This document shows, in pieces, positions 6,909 through 60,841 of a stretch of 64,000 nucleotides of DNA (its first letter is position 1; each line of letters opens with the position of its first letter). Source of the DNA: Streptomyces sp. BHT-5-2 (GTDB lineage Bacteria; Actinomycetota; Actinomycetes; Streptomycetales; Streptomycetaceae). Below the pieces are notes generated by a model. The model saw only the letters and a program-made list of their open reading frames with translations, did no database searches and was not told the origin of the DNA. A program made the position numbers and the translations under genes. The stretch is from assembly GCF_019774615.1 (NCBI RefSeq), contig NZ_CP081496.1:3534001-3598000 (forward strand). Direction: 5' to 3'.

Positions 6909-6910
6909 GT

Positions 6911-6931: not shown

Positions 6932-7176
6932 TTCACGGCATGCAACTCGCCCCTTCCCCGCGTGGCACCTCACTCCGACCTCGGACGTTCCGAGCAACCG
7001 CTCGCCGCCAGGGGGCGGTCACGTCCACAAGCGGCCTCACCGTGGCGACGCGAACGGGGGCCGGTTCGCGAAGATCGACGACGGCTTGCCGCGGCCCCAC
7101 CCGCAGAACTCCCAGCTCGAGCGCCAACCGGGTCCGCAGCTCCGGGGACACTGGCTCAGGGCTGCATACTGGAGGA

Positions 7177-18700: not shown

Positions 18701-19291
18701 GTACCGAAACACCAGTGCAGAAGCAGCCCCTGGACTCGGACACCCATCGGATCACGCCCAAGACCCAGGGACGGCGAAGAGCGCGGATGAGGAAGCAGCC
18801 CGGTTCGCACCCTGCCGGCTGGGGGCGCAGAACGCCTTCGTGCGGTTGGACGACGATGGCGGCCAAGAGGACACGCAGAACATCGAGCACGGAGCGATTT
18901 TCATGGGATAGTGCCTCGACTCAACTGCCTCGTAGGCCCATTTTCCTGATGCGGTTGATCCTGCCCTCTATCCCTCCGGGCCGAAGAGATCGCCTGGTGT
19001 ACGGCACCAATAGTCGGCGGCCTCCTTGGAATACGATGCACTCATCGAGCGGAATTCCGTAGCATATTTGAGCGGATCGCCGGTGGCAGCTGTACTGGAG
19101 AGACTCCCGGCCAGCTCCTCAGCGTGGATCGATACCCGACCCTCAAGTGAATATCCGTTACGGGCGATCTTGCTCGGCGCCTACCGGGGGAATCACAAAA
19201 GCGCTAGCCTCAAACGAGAAGCCTGATATTCCCGTTCCCGTCGAAACGGCAATGGGTGCTTGGCTGCCTCTTTCCGTTGGTCGCTGTCTGA
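18701..19291. other. Intergenic region before the lipid synthase
   Basis: A short plus frame ending in NAFVRLDDDGGQEDTQNIEH...GAIFMG at the TAG at 18909-18911 looks mildly protein-like but has no clear start. From 18912 to 19280 the sequence is lower in GC and noncoding, and probably contains the synthase promoter. Confidence 0.4.
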
Positions 19292-30994: not shown

Positions 30995-31440
30995 TCAGTA
31001 GTAGTGGCGCATGATCTCGGTGGTCCAGGTGGGCTGGGTGACGGTTTCCTGGGGGCCGAACTCGGTCATGTAGGGCTTGATGTCGAGGACGGGGGTGCCG
31101 TCGATGGCGTCCAGGCCCTGGACGTGGAGGTCGAGTCCGTCGACGTCGAGCAGGCGGCAGCGGGAGACGCCGAGGCGGTTGGGGCGGTTCTTGCCGCGCT
31201 GGGCGAAGATGCCGGCCAGGGGCCAGTCGGTGTTGCCGCGCGGGTGACGGGCGCCGGTCTCGATCCGGTCCACGGGGACGCGGTGGAAGTGGTAGACGAC
31301 CTCCAGGTGGGAGAAGGCGTCCAGGCCCGCCACCGCGTCGGGACCGAACCGGTCGGCATCCAGACGGATGACGGCCCGCTCCGTACCCCAGTCGTCGTCC
31401 CGGACGTCACGCCGCCCACCGACCACCCGACCCACCGGAC
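30995..31440 (-). repeat. Inverted repeat, left arm (partner 43132-43577)
   Basis: About 445 bp of TrmO coding sequence, near-identical to 43132-43577 in the opposite orientation. I see only a few mismatches, most of them in the first 60 bp. Similarity ends at the stop codon, with unrelated flanks. Confidence 0.9.
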
Positions 31441-31477
31441 GACACACCACCTCGGCAGGAGTGTTATTCTCGGGCAT
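30995..31477 (-). CDS. TrmO/TsaA-domain methyltransferase-like protein, copy 1
   Basis: The 160-residue protein is a single TrmO-fold (TsaA) domain: LDAFSHLEVVYHFHRV, NRPNRLGVSRCRLLDVDGL and GTPVLDIKPY are the family's SAM-binding and core motifs. TrmO itself N-methylates threonylcarbamoyladenosine in tRNA. A pathway role is inferred here because three copies occur in one biosynthetic cluster. The last ~148 codons are almost identical in DNA to the 3' part of the fusion gene at 42741-43577. It is the last gene of the minus operon, 71 bp after the ATP-grasp stop. Confidence 0.9.
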   Translation of the reverse strand: MPENNTPAEVVCRPVGRVVGGRRDVRDDDWGTERAVIRLDADRFGPDAVAGLDAFSHLEVVYHFHRVPVDRIETGARHPRGNTDWPLAGIFAQRGKNRPNRLGVSRCRLLDVDGLDLHVQGLDAIDGTPVLDIKPYMTEFGPQETVTQPTWTTEIMRHYY

Positions 31478-31548
31478 TTCTCGAACCTTTCGCCAAAGCA
31501 GGGGAAATTCAAAGGAGTTGGCTCACCGTACCGATCAGCCAGGACGCG

Positions 31549-32817
31549 TCAGCGCTCGGGCCTGTGTGCGTGCCAGAAGCGGTCAAGTCGCTCCTGCAGT
31601 TGCCCCAGCAGCATCCCCAACTCGGCGTGATCGGCAGCGGATCCGTAGATCACGCCGATCGCGCCGGTCGTGCCCCGTCGCCAGTCGGTGTGCCAGGTGC
31701 CGGGCGGGGAGACGTCGACAAGGTCGATTCCGGGGAGCTCCGCAAGTCCTTCGAGGAACGATGGTGGCCCCGGCTTGAGCGGACCTCCGGGAGGGACCAG
31801 CCAATACTGGAAGACCACCGGGTCCGCGCGGCGCGGTGCAGGCTGCGGAGCGGTGACAGGCATCCCGAGCGCCAGCCGCAGGGCCGCCGCCACCATGTCG
31901 TACCCCGTGTGGCGCTGCACGATCTCGGCGACGTAGCCGCCCAGTCGCCCGTTGACCTCGATGATCTTGGGCCCGTCGGCGGTGAGCTTGACCTCGGTGT
32001 GGGTCGCACCGTGCCGGACGCCCAGGGCACGGATCGCCGCTTGCTCCAGCCGTATGACGTCCGCCGCGAGAGCGGGCGCGACGGGAGCAGGCAGGACGTG
32101 CCCGGTCTCCCGGAACGGTGGGACCAGCGGCGGCTTTCCGGTGACTGCCACGGTCCGCGGTTCGCCGTCGACGACCAGCGACTCCACGGAGACGTAGTCG
32201 CCCCGGCCCGGCCCCGTCTGCTTGGGATCCCCACGCAGGAACTCTTCGAGGACGAAGTCCCGGTGAGCTTCCCCGGCGAACTCCGCCAGCCGGGAGCGGC
32301 ATTCGTCAACCGAGGCGACCAGGCAGGTGTCCACGCTTCCGGCGCCCTGCCGTGGCTTGAGCACCGCGGGCGTCCCCACCAGGGCAAGCGCGGAGGCGGC
32401 TTCGTCCGGGTGCCGGACCAGGGCGCACCCTGTGCCCTGGACACCGCTCTCCAAAAGGATCTGCCGCTGCCGGTACTTGTCGGTCAGGACGGCCGCGGTC
32501 TCGCGGGAGTGGAAGCGCAGCCCGCAGCGCGCAGCCACCGCCGCGGTCAGCCGCAGCCGGTGCTCGCTGAAGGTGACGACGCCCGCGGGATCCAGGCCTT
32601 CGGCGAGTCGGCACACCTCCGGTTCGCTGAGGTTCGTGATGTCTGCCACTTCGGCGTGCCCCGCGACCTGCCGTAACTCGTCTGCCAGAGACGGATGTTC
32701 CGACTCGCACAGGAAGACTACCCGGCACAGTCCCCGCGCCGCGGACAGGATGCGCAGGGGGCCGGCGGATCCCTGGTCGTGGACGACCAGGAGAGTGGGG
32801 AGAGCGGGGTGGGCCAT
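31549..32817 (-). CDS. ATP-grasp carboxylate-amine ligase
   Basis: The 422-residue protein has the ATP-grasp layout: an N-terminal Rossmann-like domain (LLVVHDQGSAGPLRIL), the ATP-binding lysine in VGTPAVLKPRQGAGS (about 150-165), the hinge DFVLEEFLRGD, and the metal-binding THTEVKLTADGPKIIEVNGR with its Glu/Asn pair. The C-terminal ~100 residues are typical of L-amino-acid-ligase and dapdiamide-synthetase-type members. It probably forms an amide bond using ATP, perhaps joining the carrier-derived amino acid to a partner. GGAGG precedes the ATG by 8 nt. It sits 12 bp downstream of the methyltransferase gene. Confidence 0.9.
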   Translation of the reverse strand: MAHPALPTLLVVHDQGSAGPLRILSAARGLCRVVFLCESEHPSLADELRQVAGHAEVADITNLSEPEVCRLAEGLDPAGVVTFSEHRLRLTAAVAARCGLRFHSRETAAVLTDKYRQRQILLESGVQGTGCALVRHPDEAASALALVGTPAVLKPRQGAGSVDTCLVASVDECRSRLAEFAGEAHRDFVLEEFLRGDPKQTGPGRGDYVSVESLVVDGEPRTVAVTGKPPLVPPFRETGHVLPAPVAPALAADVIRLEQAAIRALGVRHGATHTEVKLTADGPKIIEVNGRLGGYVAEIVQRHTGYDMVAAALRLALGMPVTAPQPAPRRADPVVFQYWLVPPGGPLKPGPPSFLEGLAELPGIDLVDVSPPGTWHTDWRRGTTGAIGVIYGSAADHAELGMLLGQLQERLDRFWHAHRPER

Positions 32818-32829
32818 GGAGTGCCTCCG

Positions 32830-33582
32830 TCAGGCGCGGCGGGCGGTGAGGTTCAGTCGTACGTAGTCGACCACCGGCTGGGGCAGGCGGGCGGCGACCG
32901 CGTGGACGAACTCCTCGTGGTCGGACGCGGGGAGCCGGTCAAGGTGGGAGCCGAGGACCACGGTGGCCAGGTAGCTCCACAACTGCTCGCCGGGCTCCAG
33001 CCGGGCCGGGTCGGGCAGCAGGGTGACCTCAATGTGGGTGAACCCGGCGTTCCGCAGCCGCTCGGTGGTCTCCTCGACGCCGGCGAAGTACCAGACCTTC
33101 TCCTTGTCGTCGGTCTTCCTACCGAGCACCTCCTCCACTGCCGCGTTGATCCGCGCGACATTGCCCTGGCCGCCGCACTCGGCGACGAACCGGCCGCCCG
33201 GGCGCAGGTGCTGTGCGAGATTCGTGAAGAGCGCGGCGTGATCGGTGATCCAGTGGAAGGTGGCCACGCTGGTGATCGCGTCGACCTGGCTGGAGATCGG
33301 CAGCGGCTTGGTGAGGTCGGCATGGACGACCTCGACCCGGTCGAGCCGGTCGGCCAACTTCGTGCGGAGCTGGTCGAGCATCCGGCTGGAGCCGTCGACC
33401 CCGATCACCTGGCCGTCCGGCACCAGGTCGAGCAGCGCGGCCGTGTCGCGCCCCGTGCCGCAGCCGGCGTCCAGAACGGTCTCATCGCCCTTCAGTTCCA
33501 GCCGGCCGAGCGTGCGCTTGCCCCACTGCTGGTGCGGCAGGGGAAGCGAGTCGTACGTCTTGGCGTCCCATTCACGGGGCAC
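32830..33582 (-). CDS. Class I SAM-dependent methyltransferase (Tam-like)
   Basis: The 250-residue protein opens like trans-aconitate methyltransferase relatives (REWDAKTYDSLPLPHQQWG). It has motif I VLDAGCGTGRDTAALL, motif II QVIGVDGSSRMLDQL, a post-II acidic VVHADLTKPLP and LRPGGRFVAECGG. Such enzymes methylate carboxylates or heteroatoms of small acids. GTG start with GAAGGAG upstream. Only 4 bp separate it from the preceding OsmC-like stop, so it belongs to the operon. Confidence 0.92.
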   Translation of the reverse strand: MPREWDAKTYDSLPLPHQQWGKRTLGRLELKGDETVLDAGCGTGRDTAALLDLVPDGQVIGVDGSSRMLDQLRTKLADRLDRVEVVHADLTKPLPISSQVDAITSVATFHWITDHAALFTNLAQHLRPGGRFVAECGGQGNVARINAAVEEVLGRKTDDKEKVWYFAGVEETTERLRNAGFTHIEVTLLPDPARLEPGEQLWSYLATVVLGSHLDRLPASDHEEFVHAVAARLPQPVVDYVRLNLTARRA

Positions 33583-33586
33583 GGTG

Positions 33587-34642
33587 CTACTCCTTCGTGT
33601 CGTTCGCGGCGATCGTGCGGTCGTTCTCGGTGTGCTGTGCGGGGGCCGGCGTGCCGTTCAGGACCAGCCGGACCTCGATCGGGTGAGCGTCCCTGACCAG
33701 TCGCAGGGCGGGGCCCCCGGCGAGCCAGCGGCGCATGTTCCGGACCGCCGTGTTGCCGTCCGCGGTGGGGTCGGCGGGCAGCAGTTGGACCAGGATGTTG
33801 CGCAGTCCGGCAGGGGCGATCTGAGTGGAGTACGGTCCGCGCAGGTCGATGCGGCCGGAGGCGTGGGCGGAGACGGGTGGCTTGTCCGGGGCGGCGGTGG
33901 CCCTGGCCGGATCGGCGAATCCCAGGGCCTCCGCCGCGAGTGCGGCCAGGAAGTACTCCTGGGCGCTGGGCGCGAGATCGGCACCGAATAGCTGCTTGGG
34001 CTGATCGGACTCCGCATGCACGCCGTCGACCTCGGCGAGCACATGAGTGCCCACCTCCCACATCACCCGGGCCGCACGCCGCCGCTCCGGCACGAATGGC
34101 TCCGTGCCCGGCAGGACGGGCCGGCTGGTCAGATGCACGTCTTGGGCGGTCTGCACCACGGCCTTGATGTCGTTGGGCTCCTCAAGGGTGCGGTGGGCGC
34201 TGCCCCGCTCGCGGGCCGCCGCGAGCGCCCGCCGGGCCTGCTCGACCGGGACGTTACCCCCAAGACGTATCTCGTAGGCAAGCCTGGCCGCATCCCCGTC
34301 CCGCGCGAACTCGACGCACGGCAGCACCTCCAGCAGCGCCGGACTGCAACCCTGTTCGGTCAGCTCGGTGACGACGCTGTCCGCCACGGACGCGCCCAGC
34401 GCCACCAACAGCGAGCCGACCGGGTCGAGGCAGTCGTCCGCACCTGATCCGCACCGCTGGTCGATGCCGAAGGTTCGGGCCACCCGGGTAGAGCCGAGCC
34501 GCATCGGCTCGGTCCGCACCCTGCAGCGGTCGGCGACCGCGGTATGTGCTGCCACGCCCAGGCTCAGCTGCGCCTCCCACGAGTCCTCCCGGATCTGCTC
34601 GGCCAGGGCCTGCCTGGCGCGCAGATCGACGCCGTTCAGCAT
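33587..34642 (-). CDS. Tandem OsmC-like protein lacking catalytic cysteines
   Basis: The 351-residue protein has two OsmC/Ohr-like halves. Half 1 (about 15-165) shows CLDPVGSLLVALGASVADSV and ERGSAHRTL; half 2 (about 195-330) shows APSAQEYFLAALAAEALGF. In peroxidase members the helix after the NPxExLLAAL motif carries a Cys, and a second Cys occurs in a RCPVHRTL-type motif. Here these positions read Ala/Ser and Gly-Ser, and half 2 has no Cys in that helix. Thiol-peroxidase activity is therefore unlikely, and a ligand-binding or structural role is inferred. GGAGGAG precedes the ATG. Its start overlaps the upstream PLP-fold gene's stop (ATGCTGA). Confidence 0.75.
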   Translation of the reverse strand: MLNGVDLRARQALAEQIREDSWEAQLSLGVAAHTAVADRCRVRTEPMRLGSTRVARTFGIDQRCGSGADDCLDPVGSLLVALGASVADSVVTELTEQGCSPALLEVLPCVEFARDGDAARLAYEIRLGGNVPVEQARRALAAARERGSAHRTLEEPNDIKAVVQTAQDVHLTSRPVLPGTEPFVPERRRAARVMWEVGTHVLAEVDGVHAESDQPKQLFGADLAPSAQEYFLAALAAEALGFADPARATAAPDKPPVSAHASGRIDLRGPYSTQIAPAGLRNILVQLLPADPTADGNTAVRNMRRWLAGGPALRLVRDAHPIEVRLVLNGTPAPAQHTENDRTIAANDTKE

Positions 34643-35703
34643 CGCTCTCCTCCGTTGCTCTGCTTCAGGGCTGTGTTCTGTTCGAGGGCCGTGTCCAGGG
34701 CCCGCCGAACCCTGCGGGCCAGCGCGTCGCCGTCCTCGACGCCCACTGACAGGCGCACCAGCTGACGTGAGACGCCCGCCTCCCGGCGCACCCGCTCGCT
34801 CAAGTGGGCGTGGGTGGTGCGAGCCGGGAGCTGTGCCGATGTGCTGAGCGGTGTGCCGTCGCCGCGGCAGGCATCCAGCACCCCGGACAGGTCCCTGACC
34901 TCCGGTACGACCTCGAAGGACAGCAGTCCGCCAAAGCCCTGGTGGGTCTCCAGGGCCCAGGGCGCCTCGTCGTACGACGGCCGGTGCACTGCTCGTACTG
35001 CGGGGTGCCCGCGCAGCGCCTCGGCGACCCGCTCGGCGCCCGCTCGCTGGGCGGACAGGCGCAGCTGCAGGGTGGACAGGGAACGTTCCAGCAGGTGCGC
35101 CGCCCAGCCGTCCACCTCGCCGCCGAGGCGCGCGCACTGCTCGGCGATCCGCGGCAGGTGCCGGTCCAGGCCGGTGACCAGGGCGGCGTCGACGTCTCCC
35201 CAGGCGTCCAGGTAGGGGGCCGTGTCCTCGATGACGACCACGGCGCCGGTCTCCAGCGGCCGCAGCTCGGCCGGCGACAGCGCGGTGTTGTCCACGGCCA
35301 GCAGCAGGTCGTTCATCTGCGCGTGGATAGCGATCTCGTTGACCGGGCACAGCCTCATCAGCGGGTCACTGAGGGACTGGGTGTACACGACCTGCGTCGA
35401 GGGCTGCACGGCGGCCGCGACCGAGTCCACGTCGGTGCAGTCGACGAACGTCACCGATCGCCCGAGGCCGGTGAGTTCCTGGTGCAGCATGCCGCGCAGC
35501 GGGTCGCAGGTCTGGTCGGAGGCGACGATGTGGCCGCCCGGGTTGGTCAACGCGAGCAGCGTGCCCATGGTGGCGGCCACGACGCCGGGGACGATCAGTG
35601 CCGAGTCGGCGCCGTGCAGGGCGGCGAAGGCGCTCTTGACCCGGCGGGCCGAGCCGTGGGCCGGGGCGGTGGGCGTCGTCATTGTCGTCTGCTGCACGGT
35701 CAC
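34636..35703 (-). CDS. Cys/Met-metabolism PLP-fold protein without the Schiff-base lysine
   Basis: About 355 residues (GTG at 35703; ATG at 35682 also possible). The fold matches the cystathionine gamma-synthase family: ADSALIVPGVVAATMGTLLA resembles the PLP-phosphate-site region, DLLLAVDNTALSPAELRPLE matches the conserved Asp-Asn-Thr strand, and the C-terminal substrate domain has GFGGLLSFEV and QLVRLSVGVEDGDAL. In active enzymes DNT...P is followed by a HSATKYLGGH-type motif whose Lys binds PLP. Here that stretch reads IEDTAPYLDAWGD, with no Lys. It is either a pseudoenzyme or uses a different chemistry. It is coupled on both sides: its GTGA overlaps the radical SAM stop and its stop overlaps the OsmC-like start. 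Confidence 0.8.
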   Translation of the reverse strand: MTVQQTTMTTPTAPAHGSARRVKSAFAALHGADSALIVPGVVAATMGTLLALTNPGGHIVASDQTCDPLRGMLHQELTGLGRSVTFVDCTDVDSVAAAVQPSTQVVYTQSLSDPLMRLCPVNEIAIHAQMNDLLLAVDNTALSPAELRPLETGAVVVIEDTAPYLDAWGDVDAALVTGLDRHLPRIAEQCARLGGEVDGWAAHLLERSLSTLQLRLSAQRAGAERVAEALRGHPAVRAVHRPSYDEAPWALETHQGFGGLLSFEVVPEVRDLSGVLDACRGDGTPLSTSAQLPARTTHAHLSERVRREAGVSRQLVRLSVGVEDGDALARRVRRALDTALEQNTALKQSNGGERC

Positions 35704-37172
35704 CGCCGGCACACGGGCGCGTCGGACAGGCCGATGCGCTGGTGGAAGTAGTGGAAGATGATCTCCTCGTGCAGCGCCTCGCCGTCCAGGGTCGGCTTCA
35801 GCGCGGCACCGTCTGCGACCTCCTCGACCAGCCCGCGCTCCAGCAACTCCGCGAACGCCGAGGCGAACGGCTCCATTTCGAGCAGATCTGCGCCGAACCG
35901 TTCCCGGTAGCGGTCGAGGACGATCGGCTGGTTGGCCTTGAAGTTGAAGCCGAGCGCGGTGCCGATGGCCTTGTGGCCGGACAGACGCCGGCCGAAGCTC
36001 AGCGGCAGGCCCTCGTTGTTCTGCATGAACGACACGTACTTGCTGATGTCGGTGATGTTGTGCGTCTGGAGGAACTCCTCCTGGTCGCCGGTGAGCCAGC
36101 CGTAGGCCCCGGGGCCGTACGCAATCATGGTGTTGTAGTGCTCCCACTTGTTCTTCGACGTCTGCGGGATGTTGCCGCCCTCGTAGGTGCCCGGTCGGCT
36201 CCACCAGCCGCAGGGGCTGGGGTAGTAGCCCTGCTCAAGCAGGACCTCGACGGCCTCCTGACGCATCGCGTACGTCGATTCCAGGTCAGGGAAGCGGCCC
36301 TCGCGGATGAGGCGTTCGCGCACTGTGGGGTTGTTCCACACCGCCCGGTTACCGATGCCCATCTCCTCCCGGTCTGCGTTGCGCAGCCGGTAGATGGTGA
36401 TGGTCGGGACGCCGAGGCCGGTGAGGATCTCCATGTCGTGGCGTACCGACTCCGGGGTCTGGTAGGGCAGGCCGAACATCATGTCGACGTTGAAAGGACA
36501 GCCGGTCGCGAGCAGGTTCTCGACGGCCTCGATCGACTGTGCCGCGGAGTGGCGGCGCTTGGTGAAGTCGTTCACCTCGTCCTGCAGGGACTGCACACCG
36601 AGACTGAACCGGTTGAAGCCCAGCTCCCGGGCCGTTTCGAGGTGGTGGCGCTGGAAGTTCTCCGGGTTGCCCTCGATGTTGAACTCGATGCCGTCCGCCA
36701 GGTCGTAGTTCTCACGGGCGTGCTTGACCAATGGCTTGATGAAGTCGGGGTTGTTGAGCAGCAGCGCCGCCGTGCCGCCGCCGATGTAGAAGGACTCGAT
36801 GCGGGCGTGCGGTATCCAGTCGTAGCGGTCCAGGTAGCGGCGGGACTCCTCGATGAGGAGATCGGACCACAGGCGCAGCGCCCCGTCCTCCTTGCCCCGC
36901 GGCACCAGTCTCTTGACGTAGTTGCAGAAGTGGCAGATGTAGTTGCACAGCGGGAGGTGGAAGTACAGGTGCGCAGGGTGGCCGGCACCCGGAAACGTGC
37001 CGTATTCCGCCGCGAGTTCGTCGCCGCTGAGCCGGTCGCCTTCGTTCGAGGTGACGTTGATGTTGTACTCGTCGCGGGGGATCTGCAGCTGCGGGTTGCG
37101 GTCGAGGAGGCGGCCGAGGTTGAGTTCGAGATCGACCGTGGTGCCACCGCGGTTGGTGGTGAGGACGGACAA
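35700..37172 (-). CDS. HemN/HemW-like radical SAM enzyme
   Basis: The 490-residue protein starts at TTG 37172 behind AAGGAG. The [4Fe-4S] motif CNYICHFC gives Cys76, Cys80 and Cys83 (CxxxCxxC) after LYFHLPL, followed by FYIGGGTAALL (SAM-binding GGE-like strand) and EFNIEGNPENFQ...GFNRFSLGVQSLQDEV, all HemN hallmarks. The C-terminal region (LGFNFKANQPIVLDRYRERF) resembles the HemN C-terminal domain. In secondary metabolism this group (class C radical SAM) methylates or cyclopropanates unactivated carbons with two SAM molecules. Chemistry on a carrier-bound aliphatic amino acid would suit this cluster, but that is inference. It follows the TrmO-like gene by about 138 bp. Confidence 0.92.
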   Translation of the reverse strand: MSVLTTNRGGTTVDLELNLGRLLDRNPQLQIPRDEYNINVTSNEGDRLSGDELAAEYGTFPGAGHPAHLYFHLPLCNYICHFCNYVKRLVPRGKEDGALRLWSDLLIEESRRYLDRYDWIPHARIESFYIGGGTAALLLNNPDFIKPLVKHARENYDLADGIEFNIEGNPENFQRHHLETARELGFNRFSLGVQSLQDEVNDFTKRRHSAAQSIEAVENLLATGCPFNVDMMFGLPYQTPESVRHDMEILTGLGVPTITIYRLRNADREEMGIGNRAVWNNPTVRERLIREGRFPDLESTYAMRQEAVEVLLEQGYYPSPCGWWSRPGTYEGGNIPQTSKNKWEHYNTMIAYGPGAYGWLTGDQEEFLQTHNITDISKYVSFMQNNEGLPLSFGRRLSGHKAIGTALGFNFKANQPIVLDRYRERFGADLLEMEPFASAFAELLERGLVEEVADGAALKPTLDGEALHEEIIFHYFHQRIGLSDAPVCRR

Positions 37173-37310
37173 GGTGGTCTCCTTGGCTGTGAAGGGAGCC
37201 TCGGTCGGCTTGTGGCCGGATCCGTGGCGGAGAAGAGAGACGCCGGGACGACAAGTGTCGACAAGTGCCGGAAGCAAGGCGTCGAGCGCGACGTGCCGCG
37301 CGGGGCGCCG

Positions 37311-37811
37311 TCAGGTGTCGTAGTAGGCGGACATCGCCGTGTGAAGCCAGGCCGGTTCGCGTACCGTGGCCGGATCCGGCTGGAAGAGCCGCTGGTACGG
37401 CTTGACGTCGAGCACCGGCGTGCCGTCCAGCGCGTCCAGGGCCCGTACGTGCAGTGTGAGGCCGTCGACGCGGACCAGTTCGCAGCGTGACACGCCGAGC
37501 CGGTTGGGGCGTTCCCTGAGCCGCTGGGCGAGGATGCCGAGGCGGGGCAGGTCCGTACGGCCCCTGGGGTGGCAGGCGCCGGTGACGGCCGCTGACTCGG
37601 GTACGAGATGGAAGTGGAAGACGACTTCGAGGTGGGAGAACTGCTCCAGACCGATCACGGCCTCGGGGCGCAGGCGCGCGGGGTCGAGCTCGATGAGCGA
37701 GGTGACCCCGCCCCAGCCGTCGTACTCGGGCACGCTGCGGGAGGAGCGGACGACGCCGATGGGGTCCAGGCTGCAGGAAGGTGACGCTTCGTCGGGTATC
37801 GGCAGCGGCAT
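37311..37811 (-). CDS. TrmO/TsaA-domain protein, copy 2 (divergent)
   Basis: The 166-residue protein starts at the ATG with AAAGGAA upstream; an in-frame GTG at 37841 is less likely. It has the same motifs as copies 1 and 3 (GLEQFSHLEVVFHFHLV, RERPNRLGVSRCELVRVDGL, GTPVLDVKPY) but is clearly diverged at protein and DNA level. It was therefore not homogenised with the other two. It lies between the PCP-TE gene and the radical SAM gene. Probable SAM-dependent enzyme; substrate unknown. Confidence 0.88.
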   Translation of the reverse strand: MPLPIPDEASPSCSLDPIGVVRSSRSVPEYDGWGGVTSLIELDPARLRPEAVIGLEQFSHLEVVFHFHLVPESAAVTGACHPRGRTDLPRLGILAQRLRERPNRLGVSRCELVRVDGLTLHVRALDALDGTPVLDVKPYQRLFQPDPATVREPAWLHTAMSAYYDT

Positions 37812-37837
37812 GGGCGTTCCTTTCCGTACGGCGGCGG

Positions 37838-38962
37838 TCACGAGGGCAGCGCAGCCACGGACGCCAGGTCGAGCTGCTCGCGCAGGCGGCGGCCCAGGAC
37901 CTCGACCTGGCCAGGCTCGACCATCGTGAAGTGGTCGCCTGGGACATCGCAGACCACGGCGCGGGCCGCGACCTCGCTCCAGCCCAGGTCGTCGGGGAGG
38001 GTGCAGTCCTCCATGGAGCGGTCGGTGACGCGGAAGACGGTGACCGTGCCGTCGTACGGCCTGATCCGGTAGGCCGCCAGGGCGTCCAGGTTGAACTGGT
38101 ACATGTCGATCATGCGGCGCAGGCGGTCGGCGTCGAAATCGGCGGGCATGGTGCCCGCGGCGACGGCTCGCTCCACCAGAACCTTCGCCCTGGTGTCCCG
38201 GGTCAGACCGCGCAGCCAGTCGATATCCAGGTTCAGCTTGAGCCCGCGCCAGAGCAGCGCGCGCAGGGCGAAATCCGGGTCGCCGCTGGGCTCGACGGTG
38301 ATGCGGGTGTCCAGCAGGCCGACGAGTCCGACGCGCTCGCCGCGTTCCGTCAGTCGGCGGGCGGTCTCATAGGCGAGCAGTCCGCCCATGGAGTAGCCGA
38401 TCAGGTTCCACTCGGCACCCTCCGGGTGGACGGTGCGCAGTTGTTCGATGAAGCACTCGGAGATGTCCTCCAGCGAGGACAGGGGCTCCTCGCCCGGCAG
38501 TAAGCCGACCGACTGGACCGCCCAGAACGGCTGGTCGACTCCCATCGCGCGGGCGATGGGTGGGTAGAGCAGCACGGTTCCGGACACCGGCGGCAGGGCG
38601 TAGACGGGGCTGCCGCCGGAGCCCTGCTGGATGCGGACCAGCTGGCCCTGCCGGTCGGCCGTGCCGCGGCGGACGATCTCGGCCAGCTCGGCGACGGTGG
38701 CCGCGGAGAGCAGGTCGGCGGCGGTGAGGTCGATCTGGAAGAGCCTGCGCACCTCCACAGTGAGCTTGATGGCGAGCAGCGAGTGGCCGCCGAGCGAGAA
38801 GAAGTCGTCGTGTATACCGACGTCGTCGCGGCGGAGCAACCGGCGCCAGACGTCGCAGAGTTGGAGTTCCACACCGTCACGGCCAGTGCCCGAGGGCGGC
38901 ACGGTGGTGGATTCCGTGGCGGATACTGCGGTGGATTTCGCGGTGGTGTGCGGGTGAGTCAT
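37838..38962 (-). CDS. Carrier-thioesterase didomain (PCP-TE)
   Basis: This 374-residue protein has a peptidyl carrier domain (about 30-100; DDFFSLGGHSLLAIKL, Ser61 for the phosphopantetheine arm) and a type I thioesterase (about 115-370; GYSMGGLLAYE with Ser191, late GDHFTMVEP with the catalytic His). There is no condensation or adenylation domain. The stand-alone A domain encoded divergently at 41178 is the obvious loading partner. It provides the covalent tether for the tailoring enzymes of the operon and then releases the product by hydrolysis or cyclisation. Confidence 0.93.
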   Translation of the reverse strand: MTHPHTTAKSTAVSATESTTVPPSGTGRDGVELQLCDVWRRLLRRDDVGIHDDFFSLGGHSLLAIKLTVEVRRLFQIDLTAADLLSAATVAELAEIVRRGTADRQGQLVRIQQGSGGSPVYALPPVSGTVLLYPPIARAMGVDQPFWAVQSVGLLPGEEPLSSLEDISECFIEQLRTVHPEGAEWNLIGYSMGGLLAYETARRLTERGERVGLVGLLDTRITVEPSGDPDFALRALLWRGLKLNLDIDWLRGLTRDTRAKVLVERAVAAGTMPADFDADRLRRMIDMYQFNLDALAAYRIRPYDGTVTVFRVTDRSMEDCTLPDDLGWSEVAARAVVCDVPGDHFTMVEPGQVEVLGRRLREQLDLASVAALPS

Positions 38963-39007
38963 CGTCTCTCTCGTCTGATGTGTCGTGGCGGATGTACGGA
39001 CTGCCGA

Positions 39008-40246
39008 TTAGGCGACGGTGGCCGGCGCAGGGGTGGCCGTGTCCGCGCCGGTCCGGCGGGCCTGGGCCCAGCGCACCGCCGGCGCCATGGACAGCCCGCC
39101 GACCAGGAACACCACGCCGAGCAGCAGCCATCCGGGCCTACCCCAGTCGATGAGGAGCAGGGTCAGCGCGACCGGGCCGAACATCTGGACGGCCCCGATC
39201 CCGGTGTTGAACAGGCCCTGGTACTGGCCCTGTTTGTCCGCGGGCGCGAGTTCGTAGCCGATCACCCAGGAACCGGCCGACTGCACAATTTCGCCGTACA
39301 CATGCAGCGCCGCCGCCACCAGCAGCACCACCGTCGCCATCACAGGACCGCGGCCGGCCGACAGCGCGAAGGCCGTGCAGCAGCCGAGCAGGACGACTCC
39401 CGCCAGCCGGAAGGCCCGGACGGCCGAGCGCAGTTCGCCGATCCTCTTCGTGACGGGAACCTGCAGGGCGACCACGGCGAGAGTGTTGAGCAGGAGCAGT
39501 ACGGCGGTGAGCGCGTGCGGTGCGTCGGTGTGCAGCGCGATCCACAGCGGAAGGATCACCTCAAGGATCGGGATGTGCAGCAGCATCAGCATGTTGATCA
39601 CGGCCAGCAGCGCGTACGGGGTGTCCCGCAGTACCGCGAACCGCGGCTCGCCCGGGCGGCGCTCCGTCGAGGGCGGTACGGCAGGCAGCCGCAGGAACAA
39701 CAGACCGCAGCCGATGAAGCTCAACGCGTTGAGGGCGAAGGTGAGCCGGTAGGCCGTCTCGGTATCCCACAGCAGAGCCAGACCGCCCAGCCCGGCTCCC
39801 GCCGAGACGCCGGCATTCGTGACGACGCGGATCTTGGCACGGACACGCACCAGGTTCTCGGCGTTCAGGACCGCCGGGATCAGAGCCTGCCGGGCGGCGT
39901 GTGCGCCGCGTTCGAAGAGCGCGTACAGGAACGCGATCACGACGAACAAGGCATACGAGTCGGTCGCCAGGTAGGCGGCGGTGGCAACGCCGGCCAGGGC
40001 GAGGAGCGCCGCCGCGGTGCCGCGGGGGCCCCTGCGGTCGGCGAGATGTCCGAATGGAACACCGGCGAACAGCCCCGCGATGCCGGCGATGCTGAGTCCG
40101 AGGCCGAGCTCGGACGGGGAGAAGCCGACGATCCGGGTGAAGTAGAGGGCGGAGCAGGTCAGGAAGGCGCCGTTGCCGAGGGAATTGACGAGATTTCCCA
40201 GAACGAGGGTGCGGGCCGGCCCTTCCTCGATGAAGCGGATTTTCAT
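39008..40246 (-). CDS. Major facilitator superfamily exporter
   Basis: The 412-residue, 12-helix MFS protein has the motif-A-type loop FGHLADRRGPRGTAAALLAL between helices 2 and 3, a large central loop after helix 6 (LPAVPPSTERRPGEP) and a second half with VTKRIGELRSAVRAF at the equivalent position. The start codon overlaps the hydrolase stop (ATGA). It probably exports the cluster's product and gives self-protection. Confidence 0.93.
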   Translation of the reverse strand: MKIRFIEEGPARTLVLGNLVNSLGNGAFLTCSALYFTRIVGFSPSELGLGLSIAGIAGLFAGVPFGHLADRRGPRGTAAALLALAGVATAAYLATDSYALFVVIAFLYALFERGAHAARQALIPAVLNAENLVRVRAKIRVVTNAGVSAGAGLGGLALLWDTETAYRLTFALNALSFIGCGLLFLRLPAVPPSTERRPGEPRFAVLRDTPYALLAVINMLMLLHIPILEVILPLWIALHTDAPHALTAVLLLLNTLAVVALQVPVTKRIGELRSAVRAFRLAGVVLLGCCTAFALSAGRGPVMATVVLLVAAALHVYGEIVQSAGSWVIGYELAPADKQGQYQGLFNTGIGAVQMFGPVALTLLLIDWGRPGWLLLGVVFLVGGLSMAPAVRWAQARRTGADTATPAPATVA

Positions 40247-40992
40247 GCGGCGTTTTCCTTCTCATCGGTTCCGGCGAATCGACCCCGATAGAAGTCGCGC
40301 ATCGCGGAGGCGAGCTGGTCCGTATTGCGGTAGCAGTCGGCATGGGATCCCTGGATGGTTTCCACCGCGAGGGCCCTGCCGCCCCGATCGGAGAGACGTT
40401 CGCGTTCGTCAGCCAGGATGTTGTGGCTGTCCGCGGCGGCCAACAGCAGTACGGGGATGCCCAGCCGCTCCAGCAGATCCGGGAGATGCCCGAAGTCGTA
40501 GGTCCAGCGCAGCAGGCTGCCCTCGGCCCACTCGTCTGCCACGTGCAGGGCGGGGTGGGCGTCGAAGGACTGGTCGATCAGCACGAGACTGCGCACCTTG
40601 GCCGCACCCCAGGTGACCGCAGAGATGGCCGCCACAAGTCCTCCGTAGGAGTAGCCGACCAGGTGCAGGTCGTCCGGGAGGGCGTCGGCGAAGCGGTGGA
40701 GGTCGGCGGAGAAGTCCAGCACCGAGTAGCCCCATGCCGGCCGGTGGCTGTCGCCGTGGGCGCGCAGGGAGGGGTAGACGGCCACCGAACCGCTCGGGCA
40801 CAGGGCGTCGCCGAGCGGTCGCAGCTGTCCTTTGTCGCCACCGAAACCATGGATCAGGAGCATGCTTCCCGGGGCGGAGCCATCCGTCCGCCGACCGGGT
40901 ACGGCGTCGTAGTCCAGCAGCTCGACACCGCTGCCGCCTCCCGCCAGCATCGGCTCGGGAAGGTTGTGCCCTTCCTTTTTGCCAGTCGTCAT
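40243..40992 (-). CDS. Alpha/beta hydrolase
   Basis: The 249-residue protein starts at the ATG with a G-rich ribosome binding site (AAGGGGG). It has the oxyanion-hole HGFGG (about 48-52), the nucleophile elbow GYSYGG (Ser115), a late acid in LLLAAADSHN and GSHADCYR with the catalytic His. It may act as an editing or type II thioesterase, an esterase or a product-modifying hydrolase. First gene of the minus operon, 185 bp from the divergent A-domain gene. Confidence 0.9.
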   Translation of the reverse strand: MTTGKKEGHNLPEPMLAGGGSGVELLDYDAVPGRRTDGSAPGSMLLIHGFGGDKGQLRPLGDALCPSGSVAVYPSLRAHGDSHRPAWGYSVLDFSADLHRFADALPDDLHLVGYSYGGLVAAISAVTWGAAKVRSLVLIDQSFDAHPALHVADEWAEGSLLRWTYDFGHLPDLLERLGIPVLLLAAADSHNILADERERLSDRGGRALAVETIQGSHADCYRNTDQLASAMRDFYRGRFAGTDEKENAA

Positions 40993-41177
40993 CGAAATCA
41001 ACCCCCTTGAGAAAAGACCGAGGTTGGCGGCAGCCTCGGGCCCAGCCAGATTCCATTCCACCGGCACGGAAAGTCAATGCCGGTCCGCGTCCCCGAAAGT
41101 GGGTACGTGACACCACAAGTGAACGGGACGGAATATCTGCGAAGGGATTCTGAAAGACCGATCTGGAGGGCTGTTCC
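40993..41177. promoter_or_regulatory. Divergent promoter region of the 31-43.6 kb cluster
   Basis: These 185 bp separate the first minus-operon gene from the plus-strand A-domain gene, so both halves of the cluster must start here or nearby. The sequence between 41060 and 41150 is lower in GC than its surroundings. I could not identify a reliable SARP-type direct repeat by eye. Confidence 0.6.
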
Positions 41178-42677
41178 ATGGGGTTCGGACTCATCCACCA
41201 GGCCGTCGCGCACCAGGCCCGGATGACACCGGGCGCCCTCGCGGTGGTCGACGGCGATATACGGCTCGACTACGCGACCCTCGACACCGCGGCCGACGCC
41301 TGGGCGACCGCCCTGCTGGCCTCCGGTGCTGGCCCAGGCACGCTGATCCCGGTCCTGTTGCCCCGCTCTGCCCGTCTCTACGTCGCCCTCCTCGCAATCC
41401 TCAAGTGCGGTGCTGGCTATGCCGCGTTGGACCCGAGGTGGCCGCGGGAGCGGACTGACGGCGTGCTGGCACAGCTGGGTGCTCCCGTGCTGGTGGCCGA
41501 CGCAGAAGAGTTGCCGGAGCATTGGACGGTTTGGAGGCCGCCGGCCGACCTTTCGGCCCGGACCTGCAAGGGCGACTCCCAGGCGTACGTCGGCCCCGCG
41601 GACGTGCCCGCCTCGGTCTTCTTCACCTCAGGAACCAGCGGTACGCCGAAGGGCGTCGTCTCCCCGCACTTCGCCACCACGCGGTTGTTCATGGCGGACG
41701 GCCCGCTGGATTTCGGGCCGAGCACCGTCATGCTGCAGGCGGCGCCGGCGGCCTGGGACGCGTTCTCGCTTGAGCTGTGGGGGCCGCTCACGACCGGCGG
41801 TAGCTGCGTGACCGCGGCCGAGGACTACCTGCTGCCGGACACTCTGCGGCGGTTGATCGACGCCCACGCAGTCGATACCGCCTGGCTGACGGCATCCCTC
41901 TTCAACCTCTTCACCGAGATAGACGCGGACTGCTTCCGTGGCCTGCGACGCCTGTACATCGGCGGTGAGCGGCTGTCGACGTCCCATGTCGGCCGGTTCC
42001 TCGGCCTGCACCCCGGTATCCGGCTGTTCAACGGATACGGTCCGGTGGAGAGCTGCGTGTTCGCCACCGTGCATCCCATCGCCGGGCCGGACTGCGAGGC
42101 GAAGTACGGCGTTCCGATCGGCCGTCCCGTGCCCGGCACCGGCGTCCACATCCTGGACGAGGAAGGCCATGAGTGCCCGCCCGACACTGTCGGCGAACTG
42201 TGCATCAGCGGTGCCGGACTGGCACAGGGCTACCTGGGCGATCCGGCCCTGACGGCCACGCGCTTCCAGGAGCGCCTGGCCGATGCCACCCGCCTCTACC
42301 GCACCGGCGACCACGGATTCCGGGACGCCGACGGCGTCTTCCACTTCACCGGTCGCGCCGACCGTCAGGTCAAGGTCCGCGGCTACCGCATCGAACCGGA
42401 GGAAATCGAAGCCCACGCGGGCCGACTGCCCGGCGTCTCGCACTGCGTCGCCATACCCGTACCCGGCGAACTGGGCAACTACGACCGACTCGCGCTGTTC
42501 TACACGACCTCCGGCGAGGACCGCAGCCCCACCGACCCCGCCCTGTTGCGCCGTTCACTGGGGCTGAGGCTTCCCCCGCACTCCGTCCCAGACGTCGTAT
42601 GCCGTGTGGACCACCTACCGGTAACGGCGAACGGAAAGATTGACCGCTTGGGACTTCTGGCCACACTCGCCCCCTGA
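41178..42677 (+). CDS. Stand-alone NRPS adenylation domain, valine-like pocket
   Basis: This 499-residue, complete A domain contains FFTSGTSGTPKGVV (A3), WDAFSLELWG (A4), NGYGPVESCVFAT (A5), RLYRTGDHGFRDADG (A7), GRADRQVKVRGYRIEPEEIE (A8) and LPVTANGKIDR with the A10 Lys. Reading the pocket by alignment gives about D-A-L-W-Y-G-G-V-F-K. This is close to published Val-type codes (DAxWxGGTFK), so valine or a related aliphatic amino acid is inferred. It has no carrier of its own and should load the PCP-TE protein in trans. The next gene follows after about 60 bp. Confidence 0.93.
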   Translation: MGFGLIHQAVAHQARMTPGALAVVDGDIRLDYATLDTAADAWATALLASGAGPGTLIPVLLPRSARLYVALLAILKCGAGYAALDPRWPRERTDGVLAQLGAPVLVADAEELPEHWTVWRPPADLSARTCKGDSQAYVGPADVPASVFFTSGTSGTPKGVVSPHFATTRLFMADGPLDFGPSTVMLQAAPAAWDAFSLELWGPLTTGGSCVTAAEDYLLPDTLRRLIDAHAVDTAWLTASLFNLFTEIDADCFRGLRRLYIGGERLSTSHVGRFLGLHPGIRLFNGYGPVESCVFATVHPIAGPDCEAKYGVPIGRPVPGTGVHILDEEGHECPPDTVGELCISGAGLAQGYLGDPALTATRFQERLADATRLYRTGDHGFRDADGVFHFTGRADRQVKVRGYRIEPEEIEAHAGRLPGVSHCVAIPVPGELGNYDRLALFYTTSGEDRSPTDPALLRRSLGLRLPPHSVPDVVCRVDHLPVTANGKIDRLGLLATLAP

Positions 42678-42740
42678 GCGCGGCACGCCATAGGCAATCT
42701 CCGCCCCGTCAAGACCAACCCTCAGAGAGGCACCGCTCTC

Positions 42741-43577
42741 ATGCCTGTGATCACCTTTCTCTCCCCCGCCCCGAGCCCCGGCCGACCCGCTCTCGCTCAG
42801 CTCGCCAAGGCGGTCACCACACTGCTGCGGATCCCGGCGGAGCACTGCTGGGTGACCTGGCAGCGGCTCGACGCCGACGCGGCACACCGCCCGGACTGGG
42901 AGCGTGCCGCCGGTGGCGCGTGTGCCCCCATCGGCTTTATCACGTGCAAGACGACCTATCCGCGCGAGACCGTGGAGCGGCTGCTGGCGCTGCTGCGCGA
43001 CGAGTTGGGGACGTTGTTGGGTGTGTCGCGCGAGGAGATCTATCTGACCGTACGCCGGGCTGTGCCGGGTGAGTTGCTGGTCCGTGGTGGCATGTGGAGC
43101 GGTGACAGCGCCCCTGCCGAGGTGGTGTGTCATCCGGTGGGTCGGGTGGTCGGTGGGCGGGGCGAGGTCCGGGACGACGACTGGGGTGGGGAACGGGCCG
43201 TCATCCGTCTGGATGCCGACCGGTTCGGTCCCGACGCGGTGGCGGGCCTGGACGCCTTCTCCCACCTGGAGGTCGTCTACCACTTCCACCGCGTCCCCGT
43301 GGACCGGATCGAGACCGGGGCCCGTCACCCGCGCGGCAACACCGACTGGCCCCTGGCCGGCATCTTCGCCCAGCGCGGCAAGAACCGCCCCAACCGCCTC
43401 GGCGTCTCCCGCTGCCGCCTGCTCGACGTCGACGGACTCGACCTCCACGTCCAGGGCCTGGACGCCATCGACGGCACCCCCGTCCTCGACATCAAGCCCT
43501 ACATGACCGAGTTCGGCCCCCGGGAAACCGTCACCCAGCCCACCTGGACCACCGAGATCATGCGCCACTACTACTGA
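42741..43577 (+). CDS. Tautomerase-like / TrmO fusion protein, copy 3
   Basis: The 278-residue protein has two parts. Residues 1-120 (MPVITFLSPAP...EIYLTVRRAVPGEL) look like a 4-oxalocrotonate tautomerase/MIF-type unit that keeps the N-terminal proline after Met removal. Residues about 125-278 are a TrmO (TsaA) domain nearly identical to copy 1 at both protein and DNA level. GAGAGGCAC upstream gives a usable ribosome binding site. The fusion is unusual and may mean that the two activities act on the same substrate. Its 3' half forms one arm of the inverted repeat bracketing the cluster. Confidence 0.88.
   Translation: MPVITFLSPAPSPGRPALAQLAKAVTTLLRIPAEHCWVTWQRLDADAAHRPDWERAAGGACAPIGFITCKTTYPRETVERLLALLRDELGTLLGVSREEIYLTVRRAVPGELLVRGGMWSGDSAPAEVVCHPVGRVVGGRGEVRDDDWGGERAVIRLDADRFGPDAVAGLDAFSHLEVVYHFHRVPVDRIETGARHPRGNTDWPLAGIFAQRGKNRPNRLGVSRCRLLDVDGLDLHVQGLDAIDGTPVLDIKPYMTEFGPRETVTQPTWTTEIMRHYY
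43132..43577 (+). repeat. Inverted repeat, right arm (partner 30995-31440)
   Basis: The TrmO-coding part of the fusion gene matches the left arm almost base for base, including synonymous positions. This indicates a recent duplication or gene conversion. Confidence 0.9.
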
Positions 43578-44312: not shown

Positions 44313-44894
44313 ATGCGCAAGTATCGCCGGGGTGTTGCCGAGCGGGAACCGGGACTGCACCGGTATCGGATCGGGAAGGTCCGAGCAGACGCTGCCCGTA
44401 TGCGAGCTGCCATCTGTGATAGCCGGCCGTGGGTTCTCATGGGCCTCACGCACCTGCTGACCACGCGATCCTCCGCCGAGATCGTGTTCGTGTCGGCCTC
44501 CGCTCTCCCTGAACCGGGAGAGGAGGTCGATGTGCTGTTCGTCGAAGACGGGCCGATGGTCCCTGCAGTGGAAGAGTGGTCACAAGCCGACGGGCGAGAC
44601 GCGAGCACCGTCGTCGTGAGTGCCGAGGTGACGCCCGATGAAGTGCTGCGGCGGGTATCCGAACTGCACGCCGTCCACCCGTCGCAGGCTGACCGCTCGG
44701 TGGATGCACTGTCTCCGCGCGAACAAGAGGTGCTGCGCTTCATTGCTGCCGGAATGACCCACGGCCAGGTCTCACGACGCATCGGGATCAGCCAGCACAC
44801 CGTCGACACATATGTCAAGAGGGTGCGCTCGAAGCTCAGCGTCGGAAACAAGGCCGAACTCACCCGCATTGCCCTCAGTCTCAGTCCCTCATGA
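44313..44894 (+). CDS. LuxR-type regulator with atypical receiver
   Basis: The 193-residue protein ends in a clear LuxR helix-turn-helix (about 130-190): LSPREQEVLRFIAAGMTHGQ, then ISQHTVDTYVKRVRSKLSV. Residues 30-110 have a receiver-like pattern (AAICDSRPWVLMGLTHLL), but the acidic pocket is reduced to one Asp and the phospho-acceptor position reads VLFVED with Glu. It therefore probably does not respond to phosphorylation. No kinase gene is nearby. The start is uncertain: ATG 44313 or ATG 44400. Together with the SARP it is the likely regulator of the adjacent cluster. Confidence 0.85.
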   Translation: MRKYRRGVAEREPGLHRYRIGKVRADAARMRAAICDSRPWVLMGLTHLLTTRSSAEIVFVSASALPEPGEEVDVLFVEDGPMVPAVEEWSQADGRDASTVVVSAEVTPDEVLRRVSELHAVHPSQADRSVDALSPREQEVLRFIAAGMTHGQVSRRIGISQHTVDTYVKRVRSKLSVGNKAELTRIALSLSPS

Positions 44895-45145
44895 GGGGAG
44901 GCCGTAGAAGCGCCCTTGGGGGAAATGGTTCCCATTGCAGGGCCTTTACGGAGAGTGAAGCCGAATCGTTCCGGAACTGCACACTGGAGGAGCCTCGGGA
45001 GAATGTCAACTAGGCCATAAACCATCGGAACCAAGGGCTCCGAATTCGCCTCTGTATTATCTGTGTTGTCACGAGGCCAACCTCTTATGATCGGGTGACA
45101 AGGCCCAGATCAGAGTCTGGTGACCAACAGGGGGGGCAGGTATCC
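44895..45145. promoter_or_regulatory. Intergenic region upstream of the SARP gene
   Basis: About 250 bp, lower in GC from 45020 on (CTGTATTATCTGTGTTGTC), consistent with a promoter. No gene is seen. Confidence 0.4.
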
Positions 45146-60824: not shown

Positions 60825-60841
60825 CCCAGGGAGTGCCGCGT

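Follow-up and report, generated by a model that had tools for sequence, protein, structure and literature searches.

In this work we have analysed a stretch of 64,000 nucleotides (hereafter the window) from the 9.1 Mb genome of Streptomyces sp. BHT-5-2 (contig NZ_CP081496.1, positions 3,534,001 to 3,598,000) and, within it, a group of twelve adjacent genes at window positions 30995-43577. Judging from the encoded proteins and their conservation, we give an even chance to the reading that this group is a biosynthetic cluster whose product is a small metabolite, exported and centred on a single valine-like residue held on a carrier; this metabolite would most probably be a dipeptide. An earlier note, made from the letters of the window alone, had placed in this group an adenylation (A) domain, a didomain of peptidyl carrier protein and thioesterase (PCP-TE), a HemN-like radical S-adenosylmethionine (SAM) enzyme, a methyltransferase, an ATP-grasp ligase, an exporter of the major facilitator superfamily (MFS) and an alpha/beta hydrolase, together with three TrmO-like proteins and two apparent pseudoenzymes, and had arranged the twelve genes in two divergent units. 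This layout is borne out: all twelve frames are open at or near the positions given there, the minus-strand unit running from 40992 to 30995 and the plus-strand unit from 41178 to 43577, and each of the seven proteins named first has Pfam or NCBIfam matches above the cut-offs. The Pfam cut-offs are exceeded for TrmO_N (three times), ATP-grasp, class I methyltransferase, Cys/Met pyridoxal phosphate (PLP) enzyme, Radical_SAM, PCP and thioesterase, MFS, alpha/beta hydrolase and AMP-binding. Counted from the shared gap, the minus strand carries in order the hydrolase, MFS, PCP-TE, TrmO2, radical SAM, PLP-fold, OsmC-fold, methyltransferase, ATP-grasp and TrmO1 genes, and the plus strand the A domain followed by the tautomerase-TrmO3 gene. 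The genes are as follows.

30995..31477, minus strand: TrmO1, a small TrmO-fold (beta-barrel, SAM-binding) protein without the C-terminal tRNA domain (PF01980, 90.8 bits)
31549..32817, minus strand: ATP-grasp ligase, nearest solved relative BacD, the alanine-anticapsin ligase (PF13535, 38.5 bits; 3wnz, E 1.3e-19)
32830..33582, minus strand: class I SAM methyltransferase (PF13649, 77.3 bits)
33587..34642, minus strand: tandem OsmC-like pseudoenzyme (OsmC, 21.7 bits, under the cut-off of 27.5; fold match of a predicted model)
34636..35703, minus strand: Cys/Met-metabolism PLP-fold pseudoenzyme (PF01053, 178.3 bits)
35700..37172, minus strand: HemN/HutW/NocN-like radical SAM enzyme with the motif CNYICHFC (probable TTG start, AAGGAG upstream)
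37311..37841, minus strand: TrmO2, a second TrmO-fold subtype (present in 12 of 12 cluster loci)
37838..38962, minus strand: PCP-TE didomain, PCP motif GGHSL, TE motif GYSMG (PF00550, 56.4 bits; PF00975, 84.0 bits)
39008..40246, minus strand: predicted MFS exporter (PF07690, 110 bits)
40243..40992, minus strand: alpha/beta hydrolase, motif GYSYG (PF00561, 48.6 bits)
41178..42677, plus strand: stand-alone A domain, code DALWYGGVFK, valine-like (TIGR01733, 337 bits, above cut-off)
42741..43577, plus strand: tautomerase-like domain (about residues 1-125; weak tautomerase evidence) fused to a TrmO domain (TrmO3) nearly identical to TrmO1

The cluster family and its distribution

Comparison of gene neighbourhoods indicates that the gene set is a real conserved cluster family, with its order kept beyond chance. 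The set recurs in order in nine further Streptomyces loci (L011-L016 and L075-L077) and in varied versions in Streptacidiphilus jiangxiensis (L017) and Actinoplanes flavus (L018), which makes twelve cluster loci with the window included. Lack of co-conservation had been named in the earlier note as grounds for abandoning its reading; what we found is a set kept across the Streptomyces loci, with variation in the two other genera. Scanning genome contigs with the radical SAM enzyme gave ten loci, eight of them of this carrier type (L011-L018) and two of another type (L019 and L020) to which we return below. Locus L013 stops at a contig end inside the A domain, the contig of L017 breaks off at the cluster's far side, and L018 has its A domain at the opposite end, downstream of the ATP-grasp gene.

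Matches to the radical SAM enzyme at E 1e-40 or better occurred in 10 of 392 same-genus genomes, seven of them at 90% identity or more with the window included, and in a sample of relatives 2 of 199 genomes had a match; a class-wide search at E 1e-70 returned one of 394 genomes, the window itself (the three samples overlap). S. griseofuscus DSM 40191 and S. murinus NRRL B-2286 are among the strains that carry the family. The ratio of nonsynonymous to synonymous substitution rates (dN/dS), calculated against two relatives (L012 and L014), was 0.125-0.55 for eleven genes, lowest for the radical SAM enzyme (0.125) and highest for TrmO1 (0.36-0.55), with the tautomerase-TrmO gene outside this test. 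The methyltransferase is 69-88% identical across the other cluster loci. With the starts that we chose, there are overlaps of a few bases between neighbours at OsmC/PLP, PLP/radical SAM, TrmO2/PCP-TE and MFS/hydrolase, which suggests co-transcription; a scan of 40800-41300 for promoters and terminators found none.

The probable loaded residue, its proposed radical chemistry and a possible second amino acid

The A domain appears to have a valine-like aliphatic specificity, as the earlier note had proposed. Its code, at positions which we take to be those of the GrsA scheme, reads DALW[Y/F/V/L]GGVFK in nine of nine loci, that is in the window and all relatives other than L075-L077 (the code of L013 lacks the last position). 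For comparison, a section of PMC12283262 lists DALWIGGTFK with the most frequent codes for the Leu/Ile/Val group, and DALWMGGT and DALWIGGT appear as valine codes in a section of PMC4219678. The cluster codes thus form one conserved family which lies two positions off DALWIGGTFK and is identical to no valine code that we found in print. Since the code is conserved and yet not identical to the printed valine codes, a close analogue of valine may be the substrate.

The radical SAM enzyme has two strong matches of solved structure, HemN (1olt, E 1.5e-18) and NocN (9p2u, E 9.6e-16). Its CX3CX2C motif, CNYICHFC, starts at residue 76, and the three cysteines are invariant in all seven aligned sequences, which come from the window and from six relatives with identities as low as 58%. 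According to part of PMC12871812, the residues of NocN that bind SAM-I and SAM-II are Tyr34, Cys40/44/47, Tyr96, Arg153, Arg171, Asp196, Ser225 and Arg230. Counted by eye, these map to Y70, C76/80/83, Y129, R188, R206, D230, T259 and R264 of our enzyme, and the mapped positions, including the tyrosine that stacks on SAM-II, are invariant in the same seven sequences, with Thr in place of NocN Ser225. The two-SAM architecture appears to be kept, and the assignment to the class C type made in the earlier note agrees both with the motif and with the two retained sets of SAM ligands. The gene adjoins TrmO2 and stays close to PCP-TE in all twelve carrier loci. An AlphaFold2 model of the enzyme, made with the seven sequences, was poor (mean pLDDT, the predicted local distance difference test, 56.5). 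As for the methyltransferase, the BioC and Tam models match it far under their cut-offs, and its best solved match is 3ccf (E 6.3e-20), which was deposited as a cyclopropane-fatty-acyl-phospholipid synthase.

Among solved structures, the five that match the ATP-grasp protein best are all amino-acid ligases, in line with its description as a ligase in the earlier note. By its scores it is a remote relative of BacD and not a BacD: the match to the BacD structure 3wnz covers only part of the length (E 1.3e-19), the BacD equivalog of NCBIfam gives 67.1 against a cut-off of 850, the DdaF cut-off is missed by far as well, and the best NCBIfam model, PRK02186, reaches 123.6 against 625. The best evidence for a product of two amino acids comes from a single genome, that of Streptacidiphilus (L017), where ATP-grasp seems to have been swapped for other joining enzymes. 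We found no ATP-grasp match there at E 0.05 up to the contig edge, and this end of the cluster carries a PCP with a condensation domain (PCP-C, with an intact HHIAFDG motif) plus a second A domain with the code DFWNIGMVHK. A section of PMC12283262 treats this code under Thr/Dhb-activating domains, and we regard the second A domain as threonine-coded. If PCP-C acts together with PCP-TE, threonine would come first and the valine-derived residue second. The product is most probably a dipeptide and perhaps Thr-Val*, where Val* stands for the valine-derived residue; by extension, the ATP-grasp ligase of Streptomyces might use threonine too.

The disarmed enzyme pair, the TrmO-fold proteins and a peptide-based relative

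The two apparent pseudoenzymes of the earlier note stand up well to comparison with their relatives. The Schiff-base lysine of the PLP-fold protein is lost in all twelve cluster copies (Pro in ten, Leu in two), and the catalytic cysteine in the first half of the OsmC-fold protein is lost in eleven of twelve (Ser in nine including the window, Gly in one, Asp in one), only L016 having Cys. A predicted model of the OsmC-fold protein was usable (mean pLDDT 71.5), and its best fold match was an OsmC-like protein (E 2e-4), with all other matches above 0.001. Against the same two relatives, dN/dS was 0.28-0.38 for the PLP-fold and 0.29-0.33 for the OsmC-fold gene, and the two genes lie side by side in the Streptomyces, Streptacidiphilus and Actinoplanes loci. 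Where could such a pair come from? An OsmC profile search of the 199 genomes returned two cluster copies and three weaker matches (86, 60 and 44 bits), and in all three of the latter the OsmC gene directly follows a gene for a Cys/Met PLP enzyme, with a gap of 43 bases in one case and an overlap in two. These paired copies retain the lysine (3/3) and the cysteine (3/3). The PLP-fold protein of the window scores 174-202 bits with the paired enzymes versus 59-109 bits with three generic enzymes of its own genome, in BLAST scores that mix blastp and tblastn. From this adjacency and these scores we derive the ancestry of the pair; a PLP-fold tree (16 rows, one of them an own-genome outgroup, long branches flagged) was not used for it. 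The cluster appears to hold an enzyme pair from other regions in which both partners have been catalytically disarmed and are nevertheless under purifying selection. The intact pairs, all from same-genus genomes, are at 7600-10141 in L082, 7595-9906 in L083 and 9622-12008 in L084; judged by eye, two lie near nonribosomal peptide synthetase (NRPS) genes and a gene for an N-hydroxylase-like flavoprotein, and one near genes for an aminotransferase-like synthase and a P450.

According to part of PMC4132733, TrmO of E. coli binds SAM through Gln25, Arg92, Asp125 and Lys136 and depends on residues of the DPRxxY motif in its C-terminal domain. Of these ligands, Arg, Asp and Lys do not vary among the eleven aligned TrmO-fold proteins, and the Gln25 position seems to be Trp (by eye, in an alignment without the E. 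coli sequence). The C-terminal DPRxxY domain is absent, the proteins ending 18-25 residues past the TrmO_N match, and both of those that we scanned miss the TIGR00104 equivalog cut-off of 93.25 (TrmO1 82.7, TrmO3 80.3). Because of the low scores, the absent domain and the apparently replaced glutamine, we describe them as TrmO-fold SAM-binding proteins and avoid the plain name TrmO. The genome of the window has three TrmO_N matches, all inside the cluster, and to this extent the three TrmO proteins of the earlier note are there; three is not, however, a property of the family, which on our comparison has two conserved TrmO proteins, the third being a tautomerase-like domain fused to a copy of TrmO1. 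At the DNA level TrmO1 is 98.1% identical over 465 bp to the TrmO part of the third gene, which points to a recent copy or conversion. The tautomerase-like part is fused in the window and in L017, runs up to the contig edge in L011 and lies out of view in L013; in seven of the twelve loci (L012, L014, L015, L016, L075, L076 and L077) it matches alone. The 21 kb locus of Actinoplanes (L018) gave no match to the tautomerase part at E 0.05 and no second TrmO, and we rejected TrmO1 and the tautomerase-like domain as parts of an essential core for this reason.

The evidence for the tautomerase assignment is mixed. An N-terminal proline directly after Met (MP) is invariant in eleven of eleven copies, and a profile of the domain had ten matches in the PDB, all tautomerases, at weak E values of 0.043-0.24. 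PF14552 is matched by five of the eleven copies (best E 0.0015), with the window copy unmatched, and a single-sequence search gave a helicase at E 0.5 and tautomerases at E 1.8-2.4 among 16 chance-level matches. A query with TrmO3 at E 1e-15 matched 154 of the 392 same-genus genomes, mostly through its TrmO part among the matches listed, and 16 of 18 fetched neighbourhoods hold a TrmO1-type gene, with unrelated neighbours among those listed. Since TrmO1-type genes are common outside the cluster, TrmO1 was rejected as a marker of it. Loci L057-L072 show these genes in varied neighbourhoods of many Streptomyces, 73-82% identical to TrmO1 among the matches listed.

A second type of cluster shares the radical SAM enzyme and resembles those for ribosomally synthesized and post-translationally modified peptides (RiPPs). 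It occurs in S. albiflavescens (L019) and in strain AC512_CC834 (L020), whose enzymes are 58-59% identical to that of the window. These loci contain genes for a SPASM radical SAM enzyme (a domain call made by Pfam on L019 only), a peptide of 52-56 amino acids which ends in ...TNITE[A/P]TVIEVE[I/V], the HemN-like radical SAM enzyme, a hydrolase, a methyltransferase, a tautomerase-TrmO fusion and an MFS protein. A search for more SPASM-type loci returned two of 392 genomes, the same two. The close matches to the window are the radical SAM enzyme (59%) and the tautomerase-TrmO protein (60%); the MFS protein is 34% identical and the hydrolase match is insignificant. It may be that one and the same chemistry serves for a ribosomal peptide in these clusters and for a carrier-bound residue in the window. 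The RiPP-type loci gave no OsmC match and a single weak, partial PLP match (E 0.006, L019), which fits a role of the disarmed pair that is tied to the carrier protein. The precursor family (MPEEK...TVIEVE[IV]) lies between the SPASM and HemN-like radical SAM genes, at 9658-9816 in L019, 9560-9730 in L020 and from 3056 in L074. Genome G392 has a precursor copy beyond those of L019 and L020, and its SPASM match holds one TAG. Another locus, L056 of genome G237, keeps relatives of the RiPP-type hydrolase, methyltransferase, tautomerase-TrmO and MFS genes and has no SPASM or HemN-like radical SAM match at E 1e-3. It looks like a natural deletion.

Proposed pathway, its alternatives and the surrounding genes

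From gene content and conservation we infer the following route, in its reactions, its order, its product and its scaffold. The stand-alone A domain would charge the PCP of PCP-TE with valine or a closely related aliphatic amino acid, and the class C-type radical SAM enzyme, with two SAMs, would then make a carbon-centred change on the tethered residue, likeliest a SAM-derived one-carbon addition. The methyltransferase, the TrmO-fold SAM-binding proteins or both would complete the adduct or divert it, and a double bond might be shifted by the tautomerase-like domain. The PLP-fold and OsmC-fold proteins, their ancestral catalysis gone, would probably serve the PCP-bound substrate together, as a scaffold or adaptor without catalysis of its own. 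The TE would free the altered residue, and the ATP-grasp enzyme would then ligate a second amino acid, perhaps threonine, a joining step for which Streptacidiphilus appears to use PCP-C and A(Thr). Finally, the MFS protein would export the product, and the hydrolase could edit or mature it. A more specific version, which we put forward tentatively and consider rather unlikely as a whole, is that the TrmO-fold proteins (class VIII, beta-barrel) resolve or divert the class C radical SAM adduct on tethered valine in the manner of C10Q (see below), that the pair of radical SAM enzyme and tautomerase-TrmO does so on either a PCP or a ribosomal peptide, and that the PLP/OsmC pair is a joint non-catalytic scaffold.

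Several points weigh against the proposed route. Its weakest point is that class C radical SAM methylases act on sp2 carbons, as stated in a part of PMC12871812; saturated valine offers no such carbon, and the twelve genes include no desaturase that we noticed. In Actinoplanes, TrmO1 and the tautomerase-like domain are unmatched and seem not to be essential to the core chemistry, and the tautomerase call is itself weak. In Streptomyces the ATP-grasp enzyme, given its remote match to BacD, may take an amino acid other than threonine, and in Streptacidiphilus an ATP-grasp gene could lie beyond the contig edge. In the RiPP-type clusters the methyltransferase has only some 30% identity, over a stretch of about 96 residues, which weakens the idea of a fixed pair with the radical SAM enzyme. 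Against a strict pairing of this enzyme with tautomerase-TrmO speak the lack of the tautomerase part in Actinoplanes and further fusions in genomes G462 and G237, which are not among the genomes with a radical SAM match at E 1e-40 and show no HemN-like match in the neighbourhoods fetched.

Could the product instead be just one modified amino acid, or a derivative that is not a peptide at all? The ATP-grasp enzyme would then add something other than an amino acid or act as a late amide ligase, as its partial BacD match, far under the BacD and DdaF cut-offs, and its best model PRK02186 would allow. We consider this unlikely in view of the PCP-C and the Thr-coded A domain, which are peptide-bond-forming parts, at the same end of the Streptacidiphilus cluster. 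Is it possible that the TrmO-fold proteins protect the producer by modifying a tRNA, for example tRNA-Thr, against a metabolite that is an amino-acid antimetabolite? All TrmO_N matches of the genome lie inside the cluster, TrmO1-type genes occur outside it in other Streptomyces, and E. coli TrmO acts on t6A of tRNA-Thr (PMC4132733, in part) while the product may contain threonine, all of which would suit self-protection. This reading is distinctly improbable to us, since the DPRxxY domain is missing, the two scanned scores are under the TIGR00104 cut-off and the Gln25 ligand is apparently replaced (by eye).

The loss of the catalytic lysine in all copies and of the cysteine in all but one would also be expected if the PLP-fold and OsmC-fold proteins were decaying remnants without function. 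Decay fits poorly with their low dN/dS, their open frames and an adjacency kept in three genera, and we regard it as very unlikely. Least probable among these alternatives is that the radical SAM enzyme is a heme-handling protein of the HutW or HemW kind in an unrelated neighbourhood. HutW is indeed its best NCBIfam match, followed by HemW, but all cut-offs are widely missed (HutW 135.5 against 400, HemW 112.2 against 205.4, HemN 91.3 against 324.95), and its gene is next to TrmO2 and close to PCP-TE in every carrier locus and beside a SPASM radical SAM and precursor gene in two genomes. On the strength of the scores and the setting we rejected a role in heme or tetrapyrrole metabolism.

Taken one by one, the parts of the cluster are of known kinds. 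The two-component cyclopropanase C10P/C10Q of CC-1065, as outlined in parts of the published work, resembles the window in that a HemN-like radical SAM enzyme and a class I methyltransferase are encoded side by side; C10Q resolves an adduct of SAM and substrate which C10P has formed. Its substrate, by the same account, is a precursor with an sp2 carbon, whereas that of the window is apparently a carrier-bound aliphatic amino acid, and the window adds the TrmO-fold proteins and the PLP/OsmC pseudoenzymes; the likeness to C10P is one of description only. NosN and NocN (nosiheptide, nocathiacin) resemble the enzyme of the window in that the NocN structure matches and both sets of SAM-binding residues are kept, but they act, according to portions of the reports, on the indolic acid side ring of a thiopeptide, and we noticed no thiopeptide genes among the twelve. 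TvgB, a radical SAM enzyme of the tvg RiPP pathway, is described in part of the literature as turning the valine of a TVGG-repeat peptide into cyclopropylglycine, which recalls the ...TVIEVE[IV] end of the peptide in the RiPP-type relative; here too the likeness is by description only, and the SPASM enzyme belongs to that relative and not to the window. The E. coli protein TrmO (YaeB) shares the TrmO_N match, and apparently three of the four SAM ligands, with the window proteins, which differ in lacking the DPRxxY domain, in their scores under the cut-off and in lying in a biosynthetic cluster.

In bacilysin-type pathways the ligation of an unusual amino acid with a plain one falls to an ATP-grasp enzyme, and the product is exported. 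The window has an ATP-grasp protein that matches BacD; unlike in bacilysin formation, its unusual residue would apparently be made on a PCP from valine by a radical SAM enzyme, and the relation to BacD is remote. The earlier note knew of no described pathway with this combination, in agreement with our search, which covered titles and openings of abstracts, partly among the matches listed, with most subscription papers outside its scope: no matching pathway was found, nor any work linking TrmO with nonribosomal peptides and biosynthetic gene clusters. Within that literature, neither the combination of parts nor the dead enzyme pair nor the TrmO partners were found described. If the proposal is true, the cluster would offer a compact system, open to genetic work, in which radical chemistry on a carrier protein yields a new amino acid derived from valine. 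The TrmO fold would gain a role outside tRNA, and the PLP/OsmC pair would show clearly how two adjacent enzymes can lose their catalytic residues together and yet stay under selection. With the RiPP-type relative, the same radical SAM chemistry could be followed on a peptide, which is easier to analyse.

Two regulatory genes follow the cluster in the window.

44313..44894, plus strand: LuxR-family regulator (PF00196, 57.7 bits)
45095..48184, plus strand: regulator of the Streptomyces antibiotic regulatory protein (SARP) type with BTAD, NB-ARC and TPR (PF03704, 140.5 bits)

Both are probably part of the cluster because their homologues flank it in relatives: LuxR homologues (about 60% identical) adjoin it in five (L012-L015 and L075) and SARP homologues (72%) in two (L012 and L076), mostly at its other end. 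Upstream of the cluster, at 16424-29516, lies a polyketide synthase region resembling polyunsaturated fatty acid synthases, with an MMPL transporter, a protein of ketosynthase, acyltransferase, acyl carrier protein, ketoreductase and dehydratase domains (KS-AT-ACP-KR-DH, 19292-25528) and a PfaD-like protein (27453-29516). This region seems unrelated to the cluster, since the PfaD-like protein had no match in the cluster loci of the relatives. A partial NRPS with A, PCP and C domains occupies positions 1-6932 on the minus strand and runs off the left end of the window, and an open reading frame at 59048-62668 encodes an asparagine-synthase-like amidotransferase, whose domain matches begin at about residue 631 and whose true start is probably internal.

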